Of a DNA stretch of 64,000 nt, positions 46,416 to 52,106 are shown in pieces. Every line of letters starts with the position of its first letter. Position 1 is the stretch's first letter. The notes beneath the pieces are model-generated. The model ran no database searches and was not told the origin of the DNA. It worked only from the letters and a program-made list of their open reading frames with translations. This stretch comes from Alphaproteobacteria bacterium (lineage in GTDB: Bacteria > Pseudomonadota > Alphaproteobacteria > JANQMY01), in assembly GCA_028289425.1 (NCBI GenBank), contig JANQPL010000005.1:62001-126000 (forward strand), given 5' to 3'. Position numbers and translations under genes: made by a program.

Positions 46416-47537
46416 CTATTCGGCAGCGAGGATCTGGCCCGCAAGCCCTTCCGCACCCCCATTGATACTCTTCAAATAATGGATTCCCGCTTCGGCAATG
46501 GAATCGCCCGGCATGGTGTCGCCCTCGGCGTGAAGTTCTTCCATGTCCACATAGGCTGCATATTTCGGGGCCGTGCGTTCCGTAATGATTCCGGCCCGCA
46601 GCAAGGTGCGGATAAGAACCCTGAAAATGTTTGTGCTGCTTTGCATGCGCGTACGCATATGATCGTCCGTCATCGCTTCCATGATGGCCCCCTGAGCCCA
46701 CTGCCAATCGATGCCAAATTCTTCGTAGATATACGCTTTCTGCTTGGGGTCCGCGCTATTGTGAAGGAGCGTCAAGAAGACTTGGCAGGCCCAATCTTCG
46801 ATTAGCTCACGTTCCGCAGGATCCAGCTTCGGCACGGTACGATCCGCCCAGATCTTGCCGAATTTGTGATGGAAAGCCTCATCGGTCATGACTAATTGGA
46901 TCATGCGTTTCAACACAGGGTCGTGCGTCTTCTCATACAGGGTCGAGAAGATGCCCATGGCGAGACCTTCCAAAACCATCTGCATGCCAACCAGTTTCTT
47001 CCAAACCAACGGGCTGCCGACCATATCGACCAACAAATCCTTCAGCACCGGGCCGATCGGCCGCGGCTTCCCCCAGCGCGATTTGATGTATTGGGTGAAG
47101 GCGGTGACGTGGCGCGCCTCTTCCCGCGTTTGGTTGGCAGCGTATTCCTGCGCGCCCGGATCTTTCAAAATATGGCACAGGCTGGCGGACAAGTTCAGCG
47201 CACCTTGTTCACCGTGTAGAATGCCGGACATGGTAATCCGAACGCTTTCATTGAGCAGCCGCGTCTTCTGCTTCTGATCAAGCTTGTCCACGATCGCAGA
47301 CGAAAAATCGATCACGAAGGTTTCCGGCATCAGATATTCGTTCTCGAGATCGAACGGCTGGCCAAAGTCCACATACTTCGGATCGAGCGGATCCCAAAAA
47401 TGATCGTGGGTGGCGGAGATAATCTTATCGAAGGCGGTCGACCGCGCACCATATCGATCCACTTCCATCATGGCGGCAAAGTCATCCGGGTGAACGGCTT
47501 CGTATGCGGGATCGATCGTCAAATTCGACTGGGTCAT
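46416..47537 (-). CDS. ferritin-like diiron-site protein
   Basis: A 373-residue all-helical protein. Glu and His ligands can be seen in GEQGAL, REEARHVTAF (ExxH), the middle EGLAMG and DEAFHHKFG (ExxH), a pattern of two EX2H helices with extra Glu, as in ferritin-like diiron oxygenases. It resembles acyl-ACP desaturase-like and AurF-like proteins only in outline, so the reaction (hydroxylation, desaturation or N-oxidation) is open. ATG 47537 has GGAGGAA upstream. It is divergent from the acyl-CoA synthetase and may act on the same acyl substrate. Confidence 0.8.
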   Translation of the reverse strand: MTQSNLTIDPAYEAVHPDDFAAMMEVDRYGARSTAFDKIISATHDHFWDPLDPKYVDFGQPFDLENEYLMPETFVIDFSSAIVDKLDQKQKTRLLNESVRITMSGILHGEQGALNLSASLCHILKDPGAQEYAANQTREEARHVTAFTQYIKSRWGKPRPIGPVLKDLLVDMVGSPLVWKKLVGMQMVLEGLAMGIFSTLYEKTHDPVLKRMIQLVMTDEAFHHKFGKIWADRTVPKLDPAERELIEDWACQVFLTLLHNSADPKQKAYIYEEFGIDWQWAQGAIMEAMTDDHMRTRMQSSTNIFRVLIRTLLRAGIITERTAPKYAAYVDMEELHAEGDTMPGDSIAEAGIHYLKSINGGAEGLAGQILAAE

Positions 47538-47769: not shown

Positions 47770-49407
47770 ATGGTCGACTACCATTTCGCGACGGCTTGGG
47801 AAGCTTTGGCCGACGCACACAAAGACAAGACGGTTCTGGTACATGGCGACAGATCGGTCTCCTGGGCCGATTACGACGCCCGCGCGGCGCGCATCGCGAC
47901 AGCGCTTATTGAGGCCGGTCTTAAGCCCGACTCCAAATTCGGCCTTTACCTCTACAACAGTCCGGAATATTTGGAAGCCCAATATGGCGGCTTCAAAATG
48001 CGCGGCGTACCAATCAATGTGAATTATCGGTATACGGAGGATGAGCTTGTTTATCTTCTGGAAAATTCGGATTCAGAGGCGTTGTTCTTCCACGCGACTT
48101 TTGCCGACCGTGTGGCGGCAATAAAACACAAGCTAAGCGGCATCAAGCTTTTCGTTGAGGTAGCGGACGGTTCCGGCCAGCATCTTGACGATGCTGTTGA
48201 GTTTGAGAAGCTCATTGAGTCAAATGATCCCATGCCGCGCATCGAGCGGCCGGCATCTGACATCTACATGTTATACACGGGCGGCACCACCGGCATGCCC
48301 AAAGGCGTCATGTACACGCAAGGTACGTTGGCGGAAGGGTTTATGCTTGGATACGATTTCCGCGGCTTTCCCAGACCCGAAACGCTTGAAGACCTGGTTG
48401 ATGCGTCTCAGAAAGTGCATGAGGCGGGCGCAAAACCAACCAGCCTTGTTTGTTGTCCGCTGATGCATGGCACGGGCATGTGGGTCGGCGCCATGATCCC
48501 CATGATGTTGGGGGGGACCGTCATCACCATGCCAAACGTCCATTTCGATGCCGATCTCGTTTGGCGAAATGTGGAACACCACAAGGCAACCGACGTGACG
48601 ATTGTGGGCGATGCCTTTGCAAAACCCATGTTGCAGGCGCTGGACACTGCGGTTGAGAGCGGAACGCCGTATGACATCTCTTCCGTGGGGCTCATCATCA
48701 GCTCCGGCGTGATGTGGACGGCCCCGGTCAAGGAGGGATTGCTGAAACATGGCGCCATGATGCTTGCCGACATGATGGGGTCGACAGAAGGCGCCATGGG
48801 CCAGCAAATCACGTCCCGCGACATGCCTGCCAAAACGGCCAAGTTCGAGCTGGGCGAAAACGTGCGCGTCTTCACCGAGGACGGCAAAGAGGTCACCCCC
48901 GGTTCCGGAGAAATCGGAATGATCGCCACATCCGGAAATGTGCCCGTGGGCTATTACAAAGATCCCGAAAAAAGTGCGCGCACCTTCAAAGAATTGAACG
49001 GGGTGCGCTACAGTTTCCCGGGCGACTTCGCGCAAGTGGAAGCCGATGGCACCATCACCCTTCTTGGGCGGGGTTCTGTTTGTATCAACACGGCCGGCGA
49101 AAAGGTTTTTCCCGAAGAGGTGGAAGAAGCCCTTAAATCTCATCCCAGCGTAGACGACTGCCTGGTGGTGGGCATTCCCGATGACCGGTTTGGCGAGCGG
49201 GTGACGGCTGTCGCGTCATGCAATGAGGGCGGGACAATCAATGTCGAGACATTGATCGAACACTCCCGAACCAAACTGGCTGGATACAAACTGCCCAAAT
49301 CAATCATTCCCGTCGACACCGTAAAGCGTGCGCCCAACGGCAAGGCTGACTACAAATGGGCAAAGCGGACGGCAGCAGAAGCGTTGGGCGTCAGGTTGCC
49401 GGGCTAG
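47770..49407 (+). CDS. acyl-CoA synthetase (AMP-forming)
   Basis: A 545-residue ANL superfamily ligase. The P-loop YTGGTTGMPKGV lies near residues 175-186. The A8 hinge follows GDFAQVEADGTITLLGRG, and Lys of APNGKADYKW near the end is the adenylation lysine. It should activate a fatty or aromatic acid to its CoA thioester; FadD3-like and FcsA-like enzymes are the closest types. ATG 47770 follows GGGAGG. It is divergent from the diiron protein and convergent with the Rieske-ThDP gene. Confidence 0.92.
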   Translation: MVDYHFATAWEALADAHKDKTVLVHGDRSVSWADYDARAARIATALIEAGLKPDSKFGLYLYNSPEYLEAQYGGFKMRGVPINVNYRYTEDELVYLLENSDSEALFFHATFADRVAAIKHKLSGIKLFVEVADGSGQHLDDAVEFEKLIESNDPMPRIERPASDIYMLYTGGTTGMPKGVMYTQGTLAEGFMLGYDFRGFPRPETLEDLVDASQKVHEAGAKPTSLVCCPLMHGTGMWVGAMIPMMLGGTVITMPNVHFDADLVWRNVEHHKATDVTIVGDAFAKPMLQALDTAVESGTPYDISSVGLIISSGVMWTAPVKEGLLKHGAMMLADMMGSTEGAMGQQITSRDMPAKTAKFELGENVRVFTEDGKEVTPGSGEIGMIATSGNVPVGYYKDPEKSARTFKELNGVRYSFPGDFAQVEADGTITLLGRGSVCINTAGEKVFPEEVEEALKSHPSVDDCLVVGIPDDRFGERVTAVASCNEGGTINVETLIEHSRTKLAGYKLPKSIIPVDTVKRAPNGKADYKWAKRTAAEALGVRLPG

Positions 49408-49442: not shown

Positions 49443-51431
49443 CTACACCAGGTCAGCGTCCGTGATGATTTCAACCAAGGCTGGACCTTTGTAGTCGAGC
49501 GCCTTCTTGATCGCGTCTTCCAATGCGGCGGCCTCTGTTACCCGCTCACCATGGCCACCACAGGCACGGGCGAACGCGGAGAAGCTTAGATTGTGGAGTG
49601 ACGTTTGCCAGACCGGCCATTCGCCAGCCTTCTGCTCCTTCGTAATTTTACCCAGCTCGCTGTTGTTCAACAGGATGTGCGTGATGTCCATGCCGTATTT
49701 GACGGCCGTAGTGAATTCCATCGCATACTGACCAAACCCGCCGTCGCCGCTGACCGAAATCACCTTCCGTTCCTTCATGTCGTCGAAATCCTGGGTCGCA
49801 GCCCAGGCACCCATGGCTGCCGGAAACCCAAATCCGATCGATCCCAGATAACCGGACATAAGAACCGATTGCCCACTGCATTCGAAGTACCGCCCGAAAG
49901 AATAGGTGTTGTTGCCCACATCCACCGAAATGATTGCATCGGCGGGCGCCAGCTTAGTCAAGGCGGCGAAGATCGACGACGAATTAACCCCATGGCCGTG
50001 ATCGTCAGACAGACGGCTTGCTTTTTCATCACGCCAGATTGACCAGCGCTCCGCAATTTCCCGCAGTTGATCTTCCACCTGCAATTTTTTGGGCAGCTGG
50101 TGGCAAATCATCTCGGCCGTGGCCCCGATTTCACCCCAGACCGGCACATCGACGGCGTGAAACTTGCCTAGATGCATACGGTCGAAGTCCACCTGAACGA
50201 TCCGTTTCGACGGTTCGATGCCCGTATGGTTGGAGAACGATGTACCGAACGCCAAAATCAGATCGCACTCATTCATGAACCAACTGGCAATCGGCGTGCC
50301 CGAACGTCCCAACACGCCGGCGGCATGGGGGTGAGTGTCCGGGATCTGCCCTTTCGCTTTGAACGTTGTCAGAACCGGCGCCTTTAGCGCTTCGGCCAGT
50401 TCAATGACCTTTGCCATCGCGCCCTTCGCGCCATAGCCCACAACGATGATGGGCCGCTTGGCCCGCCCGATTTCCTCAAGCGCCGCATCGAGAGACTCCT
50501 TTGGCGGGCTGATATCCACAGGTCCGATGCGCCCATCGGGACCGGAGGCCGGCGTTTCACCGGCCGGAACGGTCTGCACATCGTCGGGGAAAATCAAATG
50601 GGCCACATCGCGGTTCACGATGGCATTCTTGCAAGCCAGCGTCATCAGCTCTGCATGGTTGGAGCTATGAAGCACCGTCTGACTGAACTGGGCAACCGGC
50701 GCGAAAGCCGCCGCTAGATCGATATCTTGAAATGCGCCTGGACCGAACACCTGCACCTGGACTTGACCGGTCAGTGCCAGCACCGGCGCCCGGTCCACCT
50801 TCGCATCCCACAGACCCGTGATGAGATTTGTCGCCCCCGGTCCTGCAATTGTGAGGCACGATGCGGGCCGCCCCGACGCTTTTGCATAACCGGAACAGGC
50901 AAAGGCTGCGGCGCCTTCGTGACGAATGCCGTAATAGCTTAGATTCCCGGCCGCCTCTTGCAAACGCAGCGCATCCGCCAGGCCCAAATTAGAGTGCCCC
51001 ACCATGCCGAAAGTGGTCCGTACACCCCAATTCACCATGGTCTCGGCCATCACATCGGTGACGGTGCGTTCATGGGGCGGCTCCGCCGGAATACCCACAT
51101 AGATGCCGTCCGGCCGTACATCCGTCGCGAACATTTCCTGGCCCGTATCTTCATGGCCACCAGGCGGCTTGCCCGTCAGCGGATCGAAATCCCACCCATG
51201 CCACGGACAGCGCAACCAGCATTGGTCCTCGATCCCTTCTTCGATTGATCCTTCGCCCAACGGTCCGCCCTGATGCGGGCAACGATTGTCCATGGCCGCG
51301 TATTGACCTTGGAAATGCACCAGCGCCAGTGTTTTCGTGCCGGCCGTAACCGTCATCACCCGGCCGTCCGGCAGACTGTCCGGCTCCGCGACTTTGTGCC
51401 AGTCCAAATCCTGTTGAGCCGTTGCGGTCAT
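49443..51431 (-). CDS. Rieske [2Fe-2S] - ThDP-dependent enzyme fusion
   Basis: A 662-residue protein that joins two domains. Residues 1-118 form a Rieske ferredoxin-type domain with Cys51/His53 (CPHQG) and Cys75/His78 (CPWHG). Residues 125-662 are a complete thiamine diphosphate enzyme of the acetolactate synthase/pyruvate oxidase family, with the activating Glu172 in RHEGAAAF, a middle domain, and GDGG (562-565) to NN (589-590) binding ThDP-Mg. One reading frame covers both without a stop. ATG 51431 has GGGGAAG upstream. The fusion suggests electron transfer from or to the ThDP intermediate. The PaaI thioesterase gene lies downstream of its promoter side on the same strand. Confidence 0.88.
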   Translation of the reverse strand: MTATAQQDLDWHKVAEPDSLPDGRVMTVTAGTKTLALVHFQGQYAAMDNRCPHQGGPLGEGSIEEGIEDQCWLRCPWHGWDFDPLTGKPPGGHEDTGQEMFATDVRPDGIYVGIPAEPPHERTVTDVMAETMVNWGVRTTFGMVGHSNLGLADALRLQEAAGNLSYYGIRHEGAAAFACSGYAKASGRPASCLTIAGPGATNLITGLWDAKVDRAPVLALTGQVQVQVFGPGAFQDIDLAAAFAPVAQFSQTVLHSSNHAELMTLACKNAIVNRDVAHLIFPDDVQTVPAGETPASGPDGRIGPVDISPPKESLDAALEEIGRAKRPIIVVGYGAKGAMAKVIELAEALKAPVLTTFKAKGQIPDTHPHAAGVLGRSGTPIASWFMNECDLILAFGTSFSNHTGIEPSKRIVQVDFDRMHLGKFHAVDVPVWGEIGATAEMICHQLPKKLQVEDQLREIAERWSIWRDEKASRLSDDHGHGVNSSSIFAALTKLAPADAIISVDVGNNTYSFGRYFECSGQSVLMSGYLGSIGFGFPAAMGAWAATQDFDDMKERKVISVSGDGGFGQYAMEFTTAVKYGMDITHILLNNSELGKITKEQKAGEWPVWQTSLHNLSFSAFARACGGHGERVTEAAALEDAIKKALDYKGPALVEIITDADLV

Positions 51432-51689
51432 GGCATCTTCCCCTTTCAACTGCGCCGCAGGGCGGCCGTGGTCAGCACCCGGCACCAATCGGTAGCGCTT
51501 ACGGAAACGTGAAAAAAATCCGGAAACCATCCGGCCCCCAACAGATTGCCGTGTGAACACGGCTATTGCTTGAATGGGGGCGACACTAGCGTAGCGAATT
51601 TCGCACGCCAAAACACATTTAGTTGGGTTTTCTTGACTGCGTCACAGGGGACGGGTTGCGCAAAAACTAGGCAGCCGACCGGTCCGTCA

Positions 51690-52106
51690 CTAGCGCGGGT
51701 TGATCCATTGTCCGGTCGCTGATCCTTTGGCGATCAGAGTGCCGTCCGGATCGGTGAGGCGCCCTTCCATGAACATGACGCTCTTGCCGGTGCGTACCAC
51801 GCACCCTTCTGCGCGGTAGGTGGTGCCCGGTTGGGCAGATTTAAGGAAAGAGATTTTGATTTCCAGAGTCGTCATGGAGCGTTCGCCTTTGGCGGACGCA
51901 ATCGCCGCCCGCGCCATGGCCGTATCGAGCCAGCCGGTGACAAATCCGCCTTGCACCACGCCGCCCGAATGGCACATTTCGGGCCGCGGGGTGAACTCGA
52001 CAACCGCGCGGCCATTGTCTGCGTCGTATTCAATGACACGGCCGTCCCCCATCGCCGTAAGCAGAGAGTCGTCGATCGCCTTGATTTCGTCGTCAATTGT
52101 CGTCAT
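51690..52106 (-). CDS. PaaI family thioesterase
   Basis: A 138-residue hotdog-fold protein. The characteristic stretch reads CHSGGVVQGGFVTGWLDTAMARAA, with the helix that holds the catalytic Asp in PaaI enzymes, and the later LEIKISFLKSAQPG strand. It hydrolyses an acyl- or aryl-CoA. It starts at ATG 52106 and lies 258 bases upstream of the Rieske-ThDP gene on the same strand, so co-transcription is possible but not shown. It is divergent from the small unknown gene at 52255. Confidence 0.88.
   Translation of the reverse strand: MTTIDDEIKAIDDSLLTAMGDGRVIEYDADNGRAVVEFTPRPEMCHSGGVVQGGFVTGWLDTAMARAAIASAKGERSMTTLEIKISFLKSAQPGTTYRAEGCVVRTGKSVMFMEGRLTDPDGTLIAKGSATGQWINPR

Follow-up and report, generated by a model that had tools for sequence, protein, structure and literature searches.

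The analysed window comprises 64,000 nucleotides of an alphaproteobacterial genome (contig JANQPL010000005.1) and carries a gene in which a Rieske iron-sulfur domain is followed by a complete thiamine diphosphate (ThDP) dependent enzyme (Table 1). The open reading frame is unbroken from its ATG at 51431 to the stop at 49443, and GC3 is equal in the two halves of the gene (0.68 and 0.67). A promoter scan at the gene found no match and terminator-like matches there did not exceed the number expected by chance. In the Pfam analysis the Rieske domain scored 61.5 bits (E 7e-17) against a gathering cut-off of 20.3, and the three TPP domains were matched with E-values of 3e-30 to 3e-35. With all four domains above cut-off, the presence of both enzyme parts in one frame, as proposed in a first-pass annotation, could be confirmed. 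The residues C51, H53, C75, H78, E172, GDG 562–564 and NN 589–590 were likewise all found at the positions given there.

Table 1. Coordinates of the fusion gene, its domains and the genes discussed in the text. Plain positions refer to the window, those with an L number to further loci.
Feature	Position	Strand	Remarks
Rieske-ThDP fusion gene (P0001)	49443..51431	minus	662 aa
Shine-Dalgarno-like AAAGGGG	51440..51446	minus	8 nt 5' of the fusion ATG, from sequence
Rieske [2Fe-2S] domain	51168..51401	minus	Residues 11-88; ligands C51, H53, C75, H78; Rieske-ferredoxin type; Pfam PF00355
TPP_enzyme_N (PYR)	50712..51065	minus	Residues 123-240; activating E172; family-specific H146-S147-N148; Pfam PF02776
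TPP_enzyme_M (FAD/ADP-type)	50112..50489	minus	Residues 315-440; signature G396-[TSA]-S-F-x-N-H-T-G-I405; Pfam PF00205
TPP_enzyme_C (PP)	49467..49922	minus	Residues 504-655; GDG...N motif; signature LGKIxKEQ (593-600); Pfam PF02775
Acyl-CoA synthetase	47770..49407	plus	Convergent neighbour, outside the conserved system; genus-specific position
Hotdog thioesterase	51690..52106	minus	Upstream of the fusion, separated from it by 258 bp; neighbourhood not conserved
Rieske-GltS	L049:6154-7773; L099:9004-10647 (= G000:C19)	minus; minus	Commonest fusion neighbour
FRD-Rieske	L073:10433-11500; L125:8512-9573	plus; plus	Third Rieske fusion, weakly MsrQ-like haem domain
Uncharacterised membrane-anchored protein	L088:11503-12267; L026:3911-4708; L125:9506-10378	plus; minus; plus	
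DUF5996 proteins	L034:760-1623; L074:9989-10837; L131:9840-10688		Beside Rieske-ThDP or Rieske-GltS genes
zf-CDGSH GltS-like relatives	L122:6713-8263; L128:7608-9140; L129:7232-8827		

Distribution of the fusion family

A search for the spread of this domain combination, suggested in the first-pass annotation, revealed that the fusion is widely distributed. One genome per species was scanned for 84,980 species, and 568 of the 580 pattern matches encode a relative. Eighty of these loci were retained, with near full-length proteins of 68–76% identity; the copy of a congener is 92% identical. The Rieske domain and all three TPP domains were matched in each of 54 aligned members. This alignment, and likewise one of 12 members with haloarchaea included, shows no variation at the four Rieske ligands, E172 and D563; the haloarchaeal fusions have SDG/ND variants of GDG/NN with D563 kept. 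A frame break or an assembly artefact is ruled out by the nearly identical congener protein, the number of loci and the occurrence of both domains in all 54 members.

By tblastn of plasmids, four haloarchaeal copies with 59–62% identity and one copy on a Mycobacteroides plasmid with 53% identity were found, all with intact ligands. Among the plasmid matches listed, identity then falls from 53% to about 35%, and no Rieske domain was present in the four matches scanned at this lower level (Skermanella, Granulicella, Tistrella and Paraburkholderia D15, with Streptomyces H6/L113 left out). Due to this gap and the missing Rieske domain beyond it, the family appears discrete as far as sampled. The fusion is real, widely conserved across many bacteria and salt-loving archaea, and apparently uncharacterised. 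In the open-access literature searched, no description of the fusion was found, in accordance with the earlier remark that such an enzyme is absent from textbooks.

Relationship of the two halves to known proteins

The Rieske ligand set follows the pattern C-x-H...C-x2-H. In the predicted structure of the fusion (pLDDT 86.3, pTM 0.82) the N-terminal domain is mainly beta. Among solved structures, Rieske ferredoxins and the Rieske domain-containing protein 3d89 come closest to it. The domain resembles the soluble ferredoxin type, with 3d89 and dioxygenase ferredoxins as the nearest representatives, and not the bc1 type. Closest in sequence are the Rieske ferredoxins of dioxygenases and NirD, which share the ligand pattern; these are free-standing carriers or nitrite-reductase subunits, whereas the domain described here is attached to a ThDP enzyme. 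Sequence and structure searches found no PDB match uniting the two. In Rieske proteins of bc1 and b6f complexes the motifs read CTHLGC...CPCHGS and include additional cysteines that form a disulfide, and the N-terminus is anchored in the membrane. Membership in this group is ruled out, as the fusion has CPHQGG...CPWHGW, motifs without the extra cysteines, and no N-terminal hydrophobic anchor. A Rieske non-haem iron oxygenase is ruled out as well, since only Rieske and TPP domains and no catalytic mononuclear-iron domain are present.

With TPP_enzyme_N/M/C, an activating Glu and the GDG...N motif, the larger part of the protein belongs to the ThDP POX/AHAS superfamily. Pyruvate oxidase PRK08611 is the best NCBIfam model, and its score of 369 bits is half of the equivalog cut-off (742), so that the substrate may not be pyruvate. 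PRK09124 reached 291 against a cut-off of 792 and acetolactate synthase TIGR00118 293 against 538. In the phylogenetic tree the ThDP parts of 11 fusions form a single clade (100/100), and a branch with 96/91 support sets fusions and pyruvate oxidases apart from IlvB. The long stem of the fusion clade indicates a position as sister to the characterised pyruvate oxidases and not inside them. An acetolactate synthase large subunit is ruled out by the TIGR00118 score below cut-off and by the position outside the IlvB branch. The best structure match of the predicted model was C-terminally truncated E. coli PoxB (3eya, target TM 0.89), followed by further strong matches to AHAS and 2-hydroxyacyl-CoA synthases. 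Tree, NCBIfam ranking and structure match agree in supporting the kinship to pyruvate oxidases that had been assumed earlier.

Enzymes of the PoxB type (E. coli PoxB 3ey9/3eya; C. glutamicum PQO 9ev3–9ev6) share with the fusion the full-length three-domain ThDP fold, the activating Glu, the GDG..N motif and F112, which is retained as F234. With 28% identity to PoxB, the fusion differs by the additional N-terminal Rieske domain, by the absence of the membrane-binding C-terminal tail, the protein ending where this tail starts, and by two residues that are invariant in the fusion family: K595 aligns with F465, the mobile Phe on the electron path from ThDP to FAD, and H146 with D27. Both exchanges indicate an active site altered compared to PoxB, and the lost tail together with K595 is consistent with a changed electron exit. 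In the middle domain, where FAD may be bound, G396-x-S-F and D415 align with the pyruvate oxidase positions, a match that ADP-binding relatives share in part. The closest unfused sequences found are PRK08611-type pyruvate oxidases of Bacillales (plasmid copies of Priestia and Metabacillus; 34–35% identity over the ThDP part), which have the GTSF and E-Q motifs in common with the fusion but carry no Rieske domain and differ in active-site residues. The core of the fusion is a pyruvate-oxidase relative in which the parts used by PoxB for reaching the membrane and shuttling electrons are lost or changed and a Rieske domain is added at the opposite end. This domain may take the place of the quinone outlet of PoxB.

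Conserved neighbourhood and the GltS-like partner

The acyl-CoA synthetase and the thioesterase next to the window copy had been taken as a hint at an acyl substrate, which was not supported by the neighbourhood survey. The synthetase gene is convergent with the fusion gene, therefore no operon is shared, and it lies beside the fusion only in the two genomes of the window's genus; the thioesterase was found near the fusion in no other locus, congener included. What is conserved around the fusion gene is a set of further Rieske fusions together with a cation/proton antiporter. A diiron-type protein of 373 aa with an AurF-like domain (PF11583, just above cut-off) is also encoded in the window (46416–47537, minus strand), unlinked to the fusion.

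For the survey, all genes lying up to about 8 kb from the fusion were clustered for 85 loci and identified by Pfam and NCBIfam. A Rieske domain joined to an FMN/[3Fe-4S] glutamate-synthase-like protein (Rieske-GltS) occurred in 41 loci, mostly directly upstream of the fusion, the antiporter in 29, and a membrane protein that resembles ferric reductases, is weakly similar to MsrQ and carries a Rieske domain at its C-terminus (FRD-Rieske) in 28. An uncharacterised membrane-anchored protein was present in 23 loci and DUF5996, possibly linked functionally to the Rieske module, in 21. Fifty-one loci span 15 kb or more, and in 43 of these the fusion is accompanied by at least one module member. In L072 and G251 antiporter, Rieske-GltS, FRD-Rieske, uncharacterised protein (cl4), a small TM protein and the Rieske-ThDP fusion follow each other on one strand. 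The fusion is also found near Rieske-GltS on Halorarius and Salinirubellus plasmids, in Halorarius with an adjacent antiporter, and near an antiporter on the mycobacterial plasmid. The window's genome holds antiporter and Rieske-GltS on contig 19 (L099), and FRD-Rieske with a relative of the uncharacterised protein on contig 14 (L125). This multi-Rieske module was previously unremarked, and the neighbourhood points to a conserved, undescribed electron-transfer or stress pathway. Current generic annotations such as 'thiamine pyrophosphate-binding protein' and 'glutamate synthase-related protein' would mask it.

Further observations were made at these loci. The uncharacterised membrane-anchored protein gave no Pfam or NCBIfam match; it shows the cysteine pattern KCYFGxMxPGxGxxHKxCAxxC...GGxPP and its gene lies beside that of FRD-Rieske. 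About nine Woeseia-type loci (L016:3015-3913 and similar) carry a sigma-factor-like gene upstream of the row of antiporter, Rieske-GltS and Rieske-ThDP genes, accompanied by a short zinc-finger-like (anti-sigma-type) gene, both assigned by eye. Near the Rieske-GltS/antiporter pair of the window's genome a LutB-like lactate-utilisation iron-sulfur protein is encoded (L099:14675-16087), which might hint at pyruvate or lactate metabolism.

The association with Rieske-GltS was also seen at the genome level. Among 289 genomes of the class, 12 contain the fusion, eight a full-length Rieske-GltS and six both (hypergeometric p 3e-8, such p-values overstating independence because the genomes are related). 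Among 399 genomes of the phylum the fusion occurred in five, two of them also part of the class sample, and all five contain Rieske-GltS. Outside Pseudomonadota co-occurrence was observed in plasmid records only. Since several genomes have Rieske-GltS alone and half of the class-sample fusion genomes (6/12) lack it, the link is strong, not obligate.

In the alignment of Rieske-GltS the three cluster cysteines are invariant. GltS-like relatives without a Rieske domain (on a Vibrio plasmid and in genomes G023 and G211) carry tandem CDGSH [2Fe-2S] motifs instead. Members of one genus of the phylum sample (g288) differ in their match to the Rieske part of the GltS-like protein, suggesting repeated N-terminal swaps. 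CDGSH-GltS fusions are known as type 5 CISDs from a paper in which the word Rieske is absent (PMC3174974). With 54–58% overall identity, these proteins have the same GltS-like catalytic domain as Rieske-GltS and likewise an N-terminal [2Fe-2S] domain, with CDGSH at the place of Rieske; the likeness is to the partner and not to the ThDP fusion. The replacement suggests that the GltS-like enzyme requires a His-ligated [2Fe-2S] domain, and the alternation represents a natural experiment on the role of such a domain.

Similar to the fused pair, on a Priestia megaterium plasmid the gene of an ordinary pyruvate oxidase immediately precedes that of an ordinary FMN-GltS, both unfused (L110:5965-9310). 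In B. subtilis, YdaP presumably belongs to the pyruvate-oxidase family (PRK08611-type) and YerD to the GltS relatives. Both ydaP and yerD belong to the genes controlled by SigB (PMC7824861), and YerD appears in a list of proteins for osmotic resistance (PMC7522486). The Priestia pair and the putative B. subtilis counterparts indicate that a functional pairing of pyruvate oxidase and GltS may predate or parallel the Rieske fusions.

Proposed electron path and alternative explanations

We propose, with confidence and doubt evenly balanced, that the fusion is a soluble pyruvate-oxidase-like 2-oxoacid dehydrogenase in which electrons leave ThDP, perhaps by way of FAD, for the protein's own Rieske cluster and not for a membrane quinone, and which feeds a multi-Rieske module for redox or ion homeostasis. 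Electron transfer between cluster and ThDP intermediate, as put forward in the first-pass annotation, is plausible. The model is based on the tree position, PRK08611 as best model, the 3eya match, the lost tail, K595 and the invariant ligands, and on the neighbour counts, the gene row on one strand, the co-occurrence, the recurrence in haloarchaea, the exchange with CDGSH and the Priestia pair. ThDP would be activated by E172 and a 2-oxoacid, most likely pyruvate, decarboxylated. The resulting carbanion/enamine would be oxidised in one-electron steps by the assembled N-terminal [2Fe-2S] cluster, directly or via FAD in the middle domain. From there, electrons would be transferred to protein partners in place of the PoxB-style docking to membrane quinone, with the FMN/[3Fe-4S] Rieske-GltS and the ferric-reductase-like membrane haem Rieske protein as likely acceptors. 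Salt, pH or redox stress may be the condition under which the fusion matters, as the neighbouring antiporter and the unfused Bacillus counterparts suggest.

One-electron oxidation of a ThDP intermediate by Fe-S clusters is established for PFOR, and the fusion is proposed to work alike. The architectures are not homologous: PFOR differs in the sequence and in the order of its ThDP domains, contains [4Fe-4S] clusters and uses CoA. If this mechanism is true, the cluster would be a new kind of electron acceptor for ThDP chemistry, and the fusion an example of a membrane-quinone enzyme rewired by an added domain.

More tentatively, and on balance doubtful to us, the three Rieske enzymes might form one path from the cytoplasm to the membrane, coupled to the cation/proton antiporter and common at least partly to proteobacteria and haloarchaea. 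The ThDP enzyme with its attached Rieske outlet would be the entry, as a third solution beside the FAD/quinone of pyruvate oxidase and the [4Fe-4S]/ferredoxin of PFOR, followed by the GltS-like and the ferric-reductase-like enzymes. Three Rieske-fused enzymes would then make up one redox module that is spread over bacteria and partly haloarchaea, and through the conserved antiporter a connection of 2-oxoacid oxidation with Fe-S redox state and ion or pH homeostasis becomes concrete and testable.

The cluster might instead be a redox or pH sensor or gate, its protonatable His ligands switching the ThDP enzyme and the GltS-like partner in step with the antiporter. His-ligated [2Fe-2S] clusters have pH-dependent potentials, and Rieske and CDGSH, alternating at the GltS N-terminus, both bind such clusters. 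The antiporter as conserved neighbour in proteobacteria, also near the fusion in a haloarchaeon and on the mycobacterial plasmid, would fit as well, as would the SigB control of ydaP/yerD (PMC7824861) and the osmotic resistance connected with YerD (PMC7522486). Nevertheless, we regard this explanation as unlikely, since pure sensing would not call for several redox enzymes that all bear one type of carrier, nor for a ferric-reductase-like membrane protein.

Rather improbable is a non-oxidative ThDP half, a carboligase, lyase or synthase comparable to acetolactate synthase or 2-hydroxyacyl-CoA lyase, with the Rieske domain only docking or delivering the protein to a redox complex. The FAD that acetolactate synthase retains in this fold is redox-inactive, AHAS and 2-hydroxyacyl-CoA synthases are among the strong matches of the predicted structure, and H146, N148, K595 and K598 in the active site differ from PoxB. 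These points are opposed by the tree, which sets the fusion on the pyruvate-oxidase side, by the retained F112 (F234) and by the invariant Rieske ligands, which imply that the cluster is needed.

Compared to the oxidative outlet that we prefer, an inward flow, in which the Rieske domain feeds ThDP-bound substrate for reductive decarboxylation or reductive carboxylation, is highly improbable: although Rieske ferredoxins, the type found here, usually donate to their enzymes (dioxygenase systems, NirD), their potentials around −0.15 V are too high for acyl-ThDP reduction, and no NAD(P)H-ferredoxin reductase was found among the conserved neighbours. Of the oxidative or reductive decarboxylase envisaged in the first-pass annotation, the reductive direction is thus the less likely one on energetic grounds.
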